DNA of 32,362 bases, from the NCBI GenBank assembly GCA_016929445.1, contig JAFGIU010000104.1, positions 1-32,362 of the forward strand, read 5' to 3'. The notes beneath the pieces were generated by a model. That model saw only the letters and a list, made by a program, of their open reading frames with translations. It did not search any database and was not told where the DNA came from. This DNA is from Candidatus Omnitrophota bacterium. Its GTDB lineage: Bacteria > Omnitrophota > Gorgyraeia > JAFGIU01. Position 1 is the stretch's first letter. Every line of letters starts with the position of its first letter. Both the position numbers and the translations under genes were made by a program. Shown one piece after another: positions 24,488-29,500 of this stretch.

Positions 24488-24507
24488 CTGTAACTCAGTG
24501 ATATAAT
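24488..24507 (+). promoter_or_regulatory. Extended -10 promoter with overlapping small inverted repeat
   Basis: TG-A-TATAAT (24499-24507) is a perfect extended -10; no good -35 is visible. CACTG-TAACT-CAGTG, an inverted repeat directly upstream and overlapping the TG, could be an operator. It serves the DUF486 gene. Confidence 0.6.
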
Positions 24508-24610
24508 GTCCGCACTAAAGTCAGCCGACTGTATGCGCTGAAGATGTGGAGCAGAAACGACTTTAGGAGGTTTGATTCGTGGCATGCAGCAATGGAGACA
24601 TGAGAAATAC

Positions 24611-24961
24611 ATGAACCCAGTACTCTCTTTAGTATGTTTGCTTGTTTGCAGTAACGTATTCATGACCTTTGCATGGTACGCTCATCTGAAGGAGTTAAAT
24701 AATAAGCCGTGGATAATAGCAGCGCTTGTTAGTTGGGGTATTGCGCTTTTTGAATATCTCCTTCAGGTTCCGGCAAACCGTATTGGATACACCGTATTGG
24801 ATATCGGACAACTCAAGATCATTCAAGAGGTCATTACGCTCACAGTCTTTATACCTTTTTCCTTTATATACATGAAAGAACCGTTGCGATTTGACTATTT
24901 ATGGGCAGGGTTGTGTCTTGTCGGGGCAGTATTTTTCATGTTTCGTCACAGATTTGTTTAA
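24611..24961 (+). CDS. DUF486 (DMT-like) small membrane protein
   Basis: The 116-residue protein has four membrane helices and the SNVFMTFAWYAHLK start typical of DUF486, a family related to small drug/metabolite transporters; the substrate is unknown. The motifs VPANRIGY and LKIIQEVITL also fit. The start is uncertain: ATG 24611 gives the family start but has no strong ribosome site, while AGGAGG (24565-24570) lies 13 nt before an in-frame ATG at 24584, which would add nine residues. The gene is clearly richer in AT than its neighbours and uses different codons, suggesting recent gain. Confidence 0.85.
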   Translation: MNPVLSLVCLLVCSNVFMTFAWYAHLKELNNKPWIIAALVSWGIALFEYLLQVPANRIGYTVLDIGQLKIIQEVITLTVFIPFSFIYMKEPLRFDYLWAGLCLVGAVFFMFRHRFV

Positions 24962-24984
24962 CGGATGAACGCTTGCGAAAAACC

Positions 24985-25431
24985 ATGCCAAATACAATCT
25001 GCAAACTCATGGCCACATTAGGCGGGGCCGGCTTCAGTCCTGTGGCCCCCGGCACAGTGGGGAGCGCCCTGACTGCTGTGCTCTGGTTTGTGTTGCAGCC
25101 TTCTCTGACTGCGCAGGGGATTGTGTTGCTGATCCTGCTGGGGCTTGGTTGGTGGAGCTCTGAAGTCTTCGCCAAAAAACTCAACGCCAAAGACCCTTCC
25201 ATTATTGTGGTGGACGAAGCAGCCGGCATGTGGATTGCGCTGCTGGCCGTGCCCCATAACGTGTGGGCCGTTCTTGGGGCCTTTGCGCTCTTCCGGTTTT
25301 TCGACATTGTGAAGCGGGGGCCGGTGAAGCAAGCCGAAGCCCTGCCCGGCGGCTTGGGGATTATGGCTGATGATGTGGTGGCAGGATTATTTGCCCGTGC
25401 AGTGATAGCGCTGCTTTTGGTCTTCTTCTAA
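24985..25431 (+). CDS. pgpA: Phosphatidylglycerophosphatase A
   Basis: PgpA removes phosphate from phosphatidylglycerophosphate to make phosphatidylglycerol at the inner membrane. The 148-residue protein has GGAGFSPVAPGTVGS (13-27), DPSIIVVDEAAGMWIAL (about 70-86) with metal-binding-type acidic residues, and FRFFDIVKRGPVKQAEALPGG, all family marks. ATG 24985 lacks a clear ribosome site; TTG 24973 is an alternative. Its stop codon overlaps that of the convergent nucleotidyltransferase gene by 2 nt, and no terminator is visible between them. Confidence 0.93.
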   Translation: MPNTICKLMATLGGAGFSPVAPGTVGSALTAVLWFVLQPSLTAQGIVLLILLGLGWWSSEVFAKKLNAKDPSIIVVDEAAGMWIALLAVPHNVWAVLGAFALFRFFDIVKRGPVKQAEALPGGLGIMADDVVAGLFARAVIALLLVFF

Positions 25432-25982
25432 GCGGAAGCCATCTCCCACTCCTCAACCACGCCCAGGTCCTGGGCCTTTTCCCTCACCAGGTTCCGGTCG
25501 AGTTGGTCCTCAAGAGACTCCATCATGGCTTGGATGTCGCGGATGTGCTTTTCGGATTTGCCTTCCTTGAAAAACTGAAGCTTGCGGACAATGACATACT
25601 CCGGGGGCGCCAGCCAGACGTCTCCGCCCGCAAAGTCCGATTGCCTGCGTTTGGCCATGGCCCACCGGTGGAGGGGATCTTCGCCGGCCAGGTACACATC
25701 CGCCTTATACATACTGTCGTGATGGATGATATTGAAGTGTCCGCGAATGCGCCGTTTTTGTTCGATGATGAGCACTTCCTCCGGCGGCAGGTAGAATGCA
25801 TCCGCAGGGAATCCCTGAATCAGCTTGTCCACGTCTGCCTTTTTGAGCTCCAGCACAAGATCCAGATCGTTGGTGAAGCGGGGCTCTCCGTAGAGCATGG
25901 CGGCGACGGAACCGGTAATCATGTAGGGAAGCTGAATCTCATCCAGCCGTCTTGTGAATTCGAGAACCTTAGTCTCCAGCAC
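25428..25982 (-). CDS. Nucleotidyltransferase-fold protein (AbiEii/DUF6036-like)
   Basis: The 184-residue protein has a complete nucleotidyltransferase triad: GS (24-25), D39 and D41 in NDLDLVLEL, and a third Asp, D95, in YKADVY. The C-terminal half (VWLAPPEYVIVRKLQFFKEGKSEKHIRDIQAM) matches the AbiEii/DUF6036-type proteins, some relatives of which are toxins that add nucleotides to tRNA or protein. It starts at GTG 25982, overlapping the upstream small gene by 14 nt, so the two are made together. Its target is unknown. It may be one half of a toxin-antitoxin-like pair, or a housekeeping modifier; the sequence does not decide. Confidence 0.82.
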   Translation of the reverse strand: MLETKVLEFTRRLDEIQLPYMITGSVAAMLYGEPRFTNDLDLVLELKKADVDKLIQGFPADAFYLPPEEVLIIEQKRRIRGHFNIIHHDSMYKADVYLAGEDPLHRWAMAKRRQSDFAGGDVWLAPPEYVIVRKLQFFKEGKSEKHIRDIQAMMESLEDQLDRNLVREKAQDLGVVEEWEMASA

Positions 25983-26169
25983 TGAGAATGCACTCCTTTA
26001 CAGCCTGGCGGATTTGGTCCTCGCTCCAGTCGGGGTTTTGCTCCTTGAACCAGGACCACTTTGTCTGCCAGGCCAGTTGGAACATGTCCTCGATGAGCTG
26101 GAGCTTTTTGGCGGTGGAGGCCTCCTGAAGAAGCCTCTTTTGGACAGGGTGCATGCGGTAGCGTTCCAT
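25969..26169 (-). CDS. Small WSE-motif protein paired with the nucleotidyltransferase
   Basis: The 66-residue protein is almost all helix, with a charged start (MERYRMHPVQKRLLQEA), a middle helix (KKLQLIEDMFQLAWQTKWSWFKE) and a PDWSEDQIRQAVKECIL motif (46-62). I recall similar small proteins with 'P-E/D-W-S-E' placed just before nucleotidyltransferase genes in many bacteria. ATG 26169 lies only 7 nt after a TATAAT, so the message may be leaderless; ATG at residue 6 is the alternative start. It overlaps the next gene by 14 nt. A partner or antitoxin role is inferred from this arrangement only. Confidence 0.72.
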   Translation of the reverse strand: MERYRMHPVQKRLLQEASTAKKLQLIEDMFQLAWQTKWSWFKEQNPDWSEDQIRQAVKECILSAGD

Positions 26170-26176
26170 GGCCCCT

Positions 26177-26182
26177 ATTATA
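26177..26182 (-). promoter_or_regulatory. -10 box directly before the WSE-motif gene
   Basis: TATAAT on the minus strand (26182 to 26177) ends 7 nt before the ATG. No good -35 is present at 16-18 bp. If used, transcription starts at or next to the start codon. Confidence 0.45.
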
Positions 26183-26199
26183 CAGGCAAGAAGAATCCC

Positions 26200-26255
26200 G
26201 GGGACAGGTCTCGCCAGCCCCTTTGATTGCAACGGGTTTTGCGAGAACCGTCCCC
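26200..26255. repeat. Family A inverted repeat, copy 4
   Basis: Arms GGGGACAGGTCTCGC (26200-26214) and GCGAGAACCGTCCCC (26241-26255) pair with two or three mismatches around a 26-nt loop. It separates the minus-strand module from the exoprotein leader. Confidence 0.8.
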
Positions 26256-26296
26256 GAGGCTCCCCAAATCTTACGCGTCCGGTAAGGTATTTTTCG

Positions 26297-26325
26297 TTGA
26301 CACTTTTTCTCTAACCCGTCACCAT
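26297..26325 (+). promoter_or_regulatory. Possible promoter of the exoprotein leader
   Basis: A perfect TTGACA (26297-26302) has only a weak -10 candidate (CACCAT, 26320-26325) at 17 bp. Transcription from here would give a leader of about 210 nt. Confidence 0.35.
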
Positions 26326-26336
26326 TGAAACAACTT

Positions 26337-26512
26337 AGGTCTATGTGGCTATATGACCTTCGTCAGGTAATTAGTCTCATGCGGGGACGCGCATTAGTTT
26401 TAAGGTTCTGTGTCAGGGGCATCTTGAGAGGCACTCAGACGACCACACGCGATCATTGCGTCAATACAGAACCTGACTTTCTGCCCGGAAGCGATTCGCT
26501 TTCGGGTTTTTT
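26337..26512 (+). ncRNA. Structured leader RNA of the exoprotein gene (candidate riboswitch or attenuator)
   Basis: The stretch before the exoprotein gene folds by eye into several stems: AGGTC/GACCT (26337-26341, 26355-26359), ATGCG/CGCAT around 26369-26384, a closing stem AGGTTCTGT/ACAGAACCT (26403-26411 and 26466-26474, perfect 9 bp) enclosing smaller hairpins including ACGC/GCGT, and then an intrinsic terminator. The order folded domain, terminator, ribosome site, start codon is that of a riboswitch or attenuator. I compared it from memory with c-di-GMP-I and several other classes and found no match. Confidence 0.5.
26484..26512 (+). terminator. Intrinsic terminator inside the exoprotein leader
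   Basis: A 10-bp stem CCCGGAAGCG / CGCTTTCGGG (one G-U pair), a 3-nt loop and then six T. It ends 28 nt before the ATG of the exoprotein gene and has no gene upstream on this strand to terminate for about 1 kb, which points to a regulatory role. Confidence 0.85.
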
Positions 26513-26540
26513 GTTTGCCCTCAAACCACGGAGTCCGTCC

Positions 26541-29500
26541 ATGCCAAAACTGCTCACCACTCCCCAACAGCTCACCCTTGCAATACTACTCAACTTGATG
26601 CTGGTCATGCCTGCCTTGGGTTTGCCGGAACTCAAGGAAGTGGCCTCGGGCCAGGCCCAGTTCGATATCCAGGGCAAGGCCATGCAGGTAAACCAGGCCA
26701 CAGACAAAATGATTGCCGATTACCACAGCTTTTCTATTGCGGGCGATGAGGCCGTGCGTTTTGCGCAGCCTTCGGCGAGCAGCGTGGCCTTGAACCGGGT
26801 GGTGGGCGCGGATCCTTCGGCTATCTTCGGCCAGCTTCAGGCCAACGGGCAGATCTTTTTGGTGAATCCGCAGGGAGTGTTGTTTGGGCCCGGCTCCAGG
26901 GTGGATGTGGGGGCCTTGGCGGCTTCCACCTTGGACATCCAGAATCAGGATTTTCTTGCGGGTAAGTGGGCCTTTGCGGGCGAGGGCGGGGCTGCTGTGG
27001 TGAACCAGGGAACGCTGACGGCCGCGCCCGGCGGTTATGTGGCGCTGATCGGTGAGCAAGTGCGGAATGAGGGCGTGATTCGCGCGGACGGGGGATCGGC
27101 GGTTCTCGCGGCCGGCGAGCAACTGGTGCTGCAGTTGGACTCTCAGGGGCTGATTAGTGTGGTGTTGGATGGGGGTGTGGAGGGGGTGGAAGAGGGCGGT
27201 GAAGCGCTCGTGGTGAATGCGGGGGCCGTCAATACGGAAGGGTTTGCAGAGGGGAACCAGATTGTTGTGAATGCGGGTCAGATTCAAATCGTGAGTGCTG
27301 GGGATGTTGTGCTCGAATCTGGATCTGAGATCAGTGCGCGCGGCAGAGGCAGCGAATCCAATGGCGGTGTGGTGAATGTTTTTGGTGCTCGTGACGGCAT
27401 TCTAGCTGATGGATCACTCATCGATGTGCGCGGCGGTGAAATTTCCGGGGATGGGGGCTTTGTGGAGTTCTCGGCGGCGCGCAATGTGGAGTTGAACGGC
27501 GGGCGGATTGAGGCCGGGGCCTTCGAGGGGCAAAGCGGAAGGGTGCTGATTGACCCCGACACAATCTTTGTCAATTCCGACTATTTCTCTTGGGGAGCAG
27601 ACATCGATCTTGCTGCAGATAAGGGCGTGTATGTTGCGGATGGTGTTGTGGTATCGAGCAGACAAGTAGCTAGTGGAGATCATCTGAATGGAGCTTCAAC
27701 GGGCCGTTCCGGGCGCATTACCTTTTTTTCTCCACACATCGAGATTGGTAACAACGTGGTCATTGTGGCTCATGCCGACAACGGTTTTCAGGGCAATACG
27801 GTTCAGTTGGGCGCGGAAGTGTGGAAGTCGTCGGCATGGCTTGCAGGAGTCCCTTTTGAAAATGAGCTCACAGCAGATGCACGCCTGATTTTGGGTAAGT
27901 CAGTGCAGGTGAGGGGTAGAGATATCGACATGACGGCATCGGCCAGATCTACCGTTACGGCTGAGATCGATTCGGACGAAACGGTCTCTGCTGACCTAAC
28001 AGATCTGGATATGTGGGTGAATGAGGACAAGATTTTTCCAGTTGATGCGATGGGACGAGGTATTAAGTCTGAGGCCAATGCAGAGCTTTCCATTGGGGAA
28101 GGAACGGTGCTTGCTGCCGACCAACAGTTGACAGTGGAAGCGAGCTCAAAACCCACAGCCCGGCTGTGGTATTCAGGTCCGGCACCGGGATTGATGTATG
28201 CAAGCTCAGAAGGAAATTCCAATGTTTATGTGGGCCCTAACGCGAATCTTTCTGCCGGCGCAGAAATTCAAATTACCTCTAATATGCTCAACACCTCGGA
28301 TCTTCGTGTAGAAGATACCTCGATTCTCGCCGGAAGACCGAACGATTGGCCCATGGCCTATGGGAAACGGATCACCAACTCATATTTGCTTGTGGATGAG
28401 GGAGCGAGGATTTCCGCACCAGGAGTCACAATCTATTCTGATGTCAATTGGACAAGGCCCCTGATTGAGGATGGTGTTCGGATCCGTGGCGGAAGACGTG
28501 GAGCTGTGGCTGTTAGCGACAATGAGGCCGTGGTGGAGAGTGTGTTTAAAGGGATTGGTCGGGCTGATGAGTTTTTCATCCTGGCGGTTGGGAACTACGA
28601 GGACGACTATAGGACCACCGCCGAATCTTCCGGTGGTTTAGTCTGGAGATCAGGTTCCAGAGCAGAAGCTCTTTCTGAGTTTTTAAGCGGGCGACTCGCG
28701 AATGAGTCATTGGATACTTCGGGAGTTGAACGGATTCCTGCCGTCGCGATTACCCGAGATCAAATGACGAGCTTGAATTCGGTGGAAGGTGGAGCGGATA
28801 TCCTCTCAAATGGAGACCTGCTAGTAGAAACGGCAGCTATTGGTACTTCTGAATTTGAAGCAGTTAATCGAAGCCCCTTTGGTGCGGGGACAGCCTTGGC
28901 GATTGGAGAGGTCCTCAGAGAAGCCGTGGGCATTGTCCGGGATGAATCCATTTTGGATGCAAATCGAATAATCGAGATTTTGACAGCATCTGATGAAAGA
29001 GACCGTGGTCATCAGTGGTATCGTTTCTCCCCTGAGTTTGCTTGGGAAGCTCCGGAGGCCTTGTCCCACGATACGGGTCAATGGCTAGGTTCCGCAATCG
29101 ACAAGCTGGAGGACCAGGTGCCCTCGGCTTTGGGAGAAGGTTTGGAAGGAATCTCTGATATGTTGGATGAGGATAAAATTCTGGAGGAGGAGCCTGTCTT
29201 GGATTGGGGCACCGATCCCAGAGTGACCACGGGGACGCGTATTGAAAATGTCCTAAGTGCTGCTACGGCTGTAGTAAAAGATGAGGTCGTTATCAACGGC
29301 CGTTTGCTCCCTACCGAGGATTGGCAAGGGGTTATGATCGCTGCACAACCAGGAATTGAGTCCATAAATCGAGTTCAAGGCGAGAGCGGCAATGTGTACA
29401 ATATTGCTCGCTATACCGCGCGGACCGATGCCCATGTTGCGGATCAGGTTCAGATTCAAGCAAACGGGAGTGTGGAGATGTTTGCTGGGCATCGTCTGAG

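Follow-up and report, generated by a model that had tools for sequence, protein, structure and literature searches.

Why should a gene for a giant exoprotein carry a strong intrinsic terminator just ahead of its own start codon? This question is raised by positions 26326-26540 of the 32,362-nucleotide stretch of Candidatus Omnitrophota DNA analysed here as a whole (the window), which an earlier sequence-only reading had described as a leader of the riboswitch or attenuator type. The answer that we favor, with a probability of about 55%, is that positions 26333-26512 form a transcription-attenuator 5′ leader of the exoprotein gene, in which read-through would be controlled and which would occupy the slot of c-di-GMP-I riboswitches, its sensor being either lineage-specific and unclassified or decayed.

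The terminator and its genomic surroundings

The gene downstream of the leader (Table 1) encodes a protein with a signal-peptide-like N-terminus and an N-terminal TPS domain (PF05860, E 1.3e-28, residues 41-278), and its start at 26541 is backed by both the GGAG motif and the N-termini of homologues. Giant adhesion-type ORFs have been described in Omnitrophota (PMC10066038), and TPS homologues were found in 70 of the 246 genomes of the class, the window's own counted (69 others). A search of the genome for a TpsB-type outer-membrane partner gave a single ShlB-family match, a weak one on a different contig, with 22.2 bits (cut-off 22.7), or 23.5 bits together with its neighbours in frame. Scanning genome contigs with the exoprotein yielded only one cyanobacterial TPS relative, which was useless for the study of the leader.

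Table 1. Features of the exoprotein locus (positions in the window)
Feature	Position	Strand	Details
Best promoter-like site	26297..26325	+	TTGACA, 17-nt spacer, CACCAT; implied start ~26332 (PWM scan)
Presumed leader RNA	26333..26512	+	likely start to end of U-tract; inferred from promoter-like site and terminator
GUCAGGU, candidate alternative partner for closing-stem 3′ strand	26362..26368	+	perfect complement of 26471-26477 (ACCUGAC)
Domain with two inner hairpins, candidate aptamer	26403..26474	+	closed by stem 26403-26413/26464-26474
AGAACCUGA, closing-stem 3′ strand, candidate antiterminator	26468..26476	+	complement of 26502-26510 (terminator 3′ arm and first Us)
Intrinsic terminator	26483-26512	+	11-pair stem 26483-26493/26497-26507, loop ATT (GCCCGGAAGCG-ATT-CGCTTTCGGGT, 26483-26507); T-run 26507-26512
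GGAG, Shine-Dalgarno-like	26530..26533	+	7 nt 5′ of ATG
TPS-domain (two-partner secretion) exoprotein, 1610 aa	26541..31373	+	Pfam PF05860

The terminator, with a stem energy of -18.1 kcal/mol, ranks strongest among such sites in 24500-28000, and the gap between its end (26512) and the exoprotein ATG (26541) was re-measured as 28 nt, so that both its strength and its placement agree with what had been claimed for it. At the same threshold as that used for the leaders, any terminator at all appeared in just 2 of 267 mononucleotide-shuffled upstream regions. Only on the plus strand does the T-run come after the stem, so the terminator is of no use to minus-strand genes; the two ORFs located between pgpA and the leader, at 25428-25982 and 25969-26232, are such minus-strand genes and are transcribed away. 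The closest plus-strand gene upstream is pgpA, which ends at 25431; none ends within about 1.05 kb, and the statement that no plus-strand gene requires this terminator for about 1 kb upstream was thus borne out.

The two minus-strand genes at 25428-26232 form a unit that runs divergently from the exoprotein leader and may be a toxin-antitoxin pair: one product resembles a nucleotidyltransferase (DUF2204, weak match), and the other is short and resembles the Rv0078B antitoxin. Positions 26199-26255 hold a REP-like dispersed palindrome, GGGGACAGGTCTCG ... CGAGAACCGTCCCC, with arm starts 42 nt apart; its arm has 67 matches in the genome at two or fewer mismatches, compared with 28 for a backwards control, and both arms with the identical 42-nt spacing occur at seven places in the genome, this one among them. 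At its other end (1-740), the window contains the end of an rRNA operon, with the 3′ end of the 23S gene, the 5S gene (584-700) and a strong terminator at 709-740.

The promoter-like site at 26297 reached a PWM score of 8.3; in the rest of the window, the best score per 345 nt has a median of 6.0. The -35 element of the site is perfect and its -10 element poor, hence it counts as weak evidence, and a consensus promoter tool gave no site for the leader. If this promoter is right, all exoprotein transcripts would cross the terminator. Between the terminator and the ATG, the PWM scan found no promoter-like site giving a start there (best score 1.9), and therefore the exoprotein mRNA very probably reads through the terminator.

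c-di-GMP-I riboswitches in front of homologous genes

Upstream DNA was collected and oriented for 89 homologous TPS genes besides that of the window (L024-L112), and the start could be placed in all except L027. Rfam models were run on 80 of these regions (omitting L101, L102, L104-L107 and L109-L111), and in 18 of them c-di-GMP-I or c-di-GMP-I-GGC was detected above the gathering score (L024, L037, L049, L052, L060, L068, L072, L075, L077, L081, L085, L086, L089, L093, L095, L096, L108 and L112). A lineage model (R3), built from 22 c-di-GMP-I aptamers and applied to all 89 regions, added four more (L084, L061 and, weaker, L030 and L069), which gives a total of 22 of 89. In TPS leaders of the class bearing either riboswitch a terminator is often present, its arms being able to pair with the aptamer. 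The window's own genome (2.43 Mb, 137 contigs; the relatives compared belong to the same class at best) contains eight c-di-GMP-I riboswitches above the cut-off, and several of these sites show the plan seen in the window: aptamer, terminator, short gap and start codon.

Eight of the 88 homologues whose start could be placed have a strong terminator 60 nt or less from the ATG (16-60 nt), and all eight carry c-di-GMP-I. With 22 carriers among 88, the chance of such an outcome is about 5e-6 by a hand calculation that assumes independent genes, an assumption that does not fully hold. Thus, a terminator at this position goes with riboswitch control. The leader in the window precedes a gene of the same family as do the c-di-GMP-I (RF01051) and c-di-GMP-I-GGC (RF03167) elements, and it is the ninth leader with a close strong terminator and the sole one without c-di-GMP-I. 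A terminator between aptamer and gene, a c-di-GMP-I trait not specific to that family, is present at 26483-26512. Unlike the riboswitches of its relatives, the leader gave no match to either Rfam model, even at E up to 10, and the lineage model, run without filters, scored it at no more than -0.6 bits on the plus strand. The ligand-pocket core GGCAAA...GACGCAAAG, largely invariant among the riboswitches of alignment A3, is absent from 26326-26480; the missing core and the R3 score together rule out that the leader is a diverged c-di-GMP-I element. Elsewhere in the same genome (contig C109, 5360-5475) lies a c-di-GMP-I riboswitch of 40.4 bits in which one arm, usually capped by a short GAAA-type loop, is enlarged by inserted extra sequence that may include a hairpin.

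A special case of the attenuator reading would be that a c-di-GMP-I riboswitch in this slot decayed or was replaced, the aptamer being lost while a constitutive partial terminator, or another kind of control, remains. The occupancy of the slot in about a quarter of homologues and the abundance of the family in the same genome speak for such a history. On the other hand, the lineage model found no leftover aptamer signal, and most homologues are devoid of a c-di-GMP-I leader, so that the ancestor need not have carried one; we regard this scenario as rather unlikely.

Distribution and fold of the leader

The covariance search proposed in the sequence-only reading (Rfam 15, 26200-26600) returned no family at the gathering score and nothing credible up to E 10, which upholds the view that the leader is outside known classes. 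Up to E 10 the sole match was the sRNA anti-hemB, which came mostly from the terminator and reached 12.5 bits where 49.5 would be needed. Blastn of the leader against its own genome and 58 relatives showed it to be single-copy in the genome and gave no homologue; the best foreign match (L002), attributed to chance, falls within a gene that by its translation resembles a glycyl-tRNA synthetase. Two single-sequence covariance models (R1 and R2) likewise detected no leader homologue in the own genome, about 290 genomes of the class and a 384-genome sample of the phylum, a result in which distant homologues may be missed, since single-sequence models are short-reaching and searches over 40 genomes were run under stricter filters. 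One R1 match in the class and phylum samples (L123) was antisense in a membrane-protein-like ORF, and two R2 matches lay within a response-regulator/kinase ORF (L130) and antisense in an argininosuccinate synthase gene (L131); all three were rejected as chance, the latter two even with a closing stem similar to that of the leader. Neither plasmids nor phages gave a match to the leader.

It might also be assumed that the terminator marks the end, at 26512, of a separate sRNA gene some 180 nt long, and that the exoprotein is made through leak or from a different promoter. Indeed, the promoter-like site, a foldable body and the terminator would make up a complete unit. This is unlikely, however, as the sequence is an orphan, and its only Rfam match, to anti-hemB, is far under the threshold and owed mostly to the terminator. 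Even under such an arrangement the exoprotein gene would still need read-through, because no promoter-like site lies in the 28 nt before its ATG.

The region had been described further as multi-stem, with a perfect 9-bp closing stem. The 9-bp core is present (26403-26411/26466-26474) and extends to 11 pairs of -14.1 kcal/mol, but the significance of the fold did not hold: dinucleotide shuffling of the leader produced a helix as stable in 54 of 1000 cases (5.4%), and among 860 pieces of 150 nt from the window 188 (22%) had one, which spanned 50 nt or more in 129 pieces. The whole leader folds with z of -2.28, owed largely to the terminator, while the leader minus the terminator is no better than chance (z of -0.87 and -1.07 in two runs). 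The domain 26403-26475 alone gave z of -2.27 (13 of 500 shuffles), a domain picked post hoc. A structured aptamer in the leader is not supported, as the fold is not significant and no homologue was found in which covariation could be examined.

Among the pairings through which a switch could operate, the candidate helix 26362-26368/26471-26477 has an energy of -9.2 kcal/mol. The candidate antiterminators of the leader were equalled in 66 of 100 and 12 of 100 shuffles, the second figure being that of 26468-26476/26502-26510, whose energy of -8.4 kcal/mol is therefore not significant. Strong antiterminators, equalled in only 0-4 of 100 shuffles (one arm), are present in the c-di-GMP-I leaders of seven relatives (L075, L084, L085, L095, L096, L108 and L112).

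Another special case of the attenuator reading is that the leader binds a ligand, as a true riboswitch or otherwise, and belongs to a class outside Rfam; 26403-26474, perhaps together with 26334-26400, would then decide the fate of the terminator. The attenuator layout, the failure to match Rfam, the potential of the closing-stem 3′ strand to pair with the terminator 3′ arm, and the riboswitch nature of the leaders found in the same slot in relatives are all consistent with it. Against it stand the near-chance fold and the antiterminator, together with the single genomic copy and the failure to find a relative in the class and phylum samples. What stood of the proposed riboswitch or attenuator layout is thus the attenuator arrangement, which relatives share by having c-di-GMP-I and a terminator in the same place, and not the structured aptamer. 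The leader resembles orphan riboswitch candidates in combining a leader with an expression platform and an unassigned ligand; unlike them, it is one sequence only, whereas those candidates are defined by conserved nucleotides and covariation in many genomes (PMC7266159). A new class of riboswitch, though possible, is unsupported, and we find it doubtful that such an element operates here. It is more doubtful still that an aptamer of an undescribed class replaced c-di-GMP-I in front of the exoprotein gene, possibly as a further receptor for c-di-GMP or a signal related to it.

Attenuation dependent on an antiterminator protein, or on translation of a peptide encoded in the leader, is very improbable. 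As to a leader peptide, the frame 5′ of the exoprotein ATG is stop-free for about 80 codons and has an ATG at 26340, but a frame this open occurs in 154 of 2000 shuffles (8%), its codon usage is non-coding (-0.22 in the exoprotein frame, where the gene itself averages 0.33 and never falls below 0.03), and short leader frames contain no run of regulatory codons. The non-coding codon usage also rules out that the exoprotein N-terminus reaches into the leader.

Proposed function of the leader

In the attenuator that we propose, RNA polymerase starting at about 26332, from the putative promoter, would encounter the terminator before reaching the start codon, and exoprotein expression would be proportional to read-through at 26483-26512. 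Control of this read-through, which we infer, may reside in a lineage-specific, unclassified sensing element (26403-26474), whose 3′ strand (26464-26476) would be free for other pairing. Any switching could then depend on whether the closing stem forms or is lost, which might set the terminator via 26468-26476/26502-26510 and 26362-26368/26471-26477. Alternatively, the sensing part may have decayed, leaving a fixed partial terminator. Several observations count against the attenuator reading: the fold without the terminator is at chance level, the candidate antiterminators are like those of shuffled sequences, no homologue of the leader was found, and the -10 element is poor.

A comparable arrangement is the c-di-GMP-I element Vc1 of Vibrio cholerae, which precedes gbpA, a gene for a secreted colonization factor (PMC4744006). 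Both are RNA leaders of secreted proteins, in the case of gbpA an attachment protein. Vc1 is a recognised GEMM aptamer with no apparent terminator between it and gbpA (PMC4744006); the leader in the window, in contrast, has a terminator and no recognised aptamer.

In this class, c-di-GMP-I riboswitches with terminators recur in front of TPS exoprotein genes, and this links the large secreted surface proteins of these little-known bacteria to a known surface-attachment signal. Among the leaders of such genes, that in the window offers a concrete site at which a replaced or new sensor may be sought.
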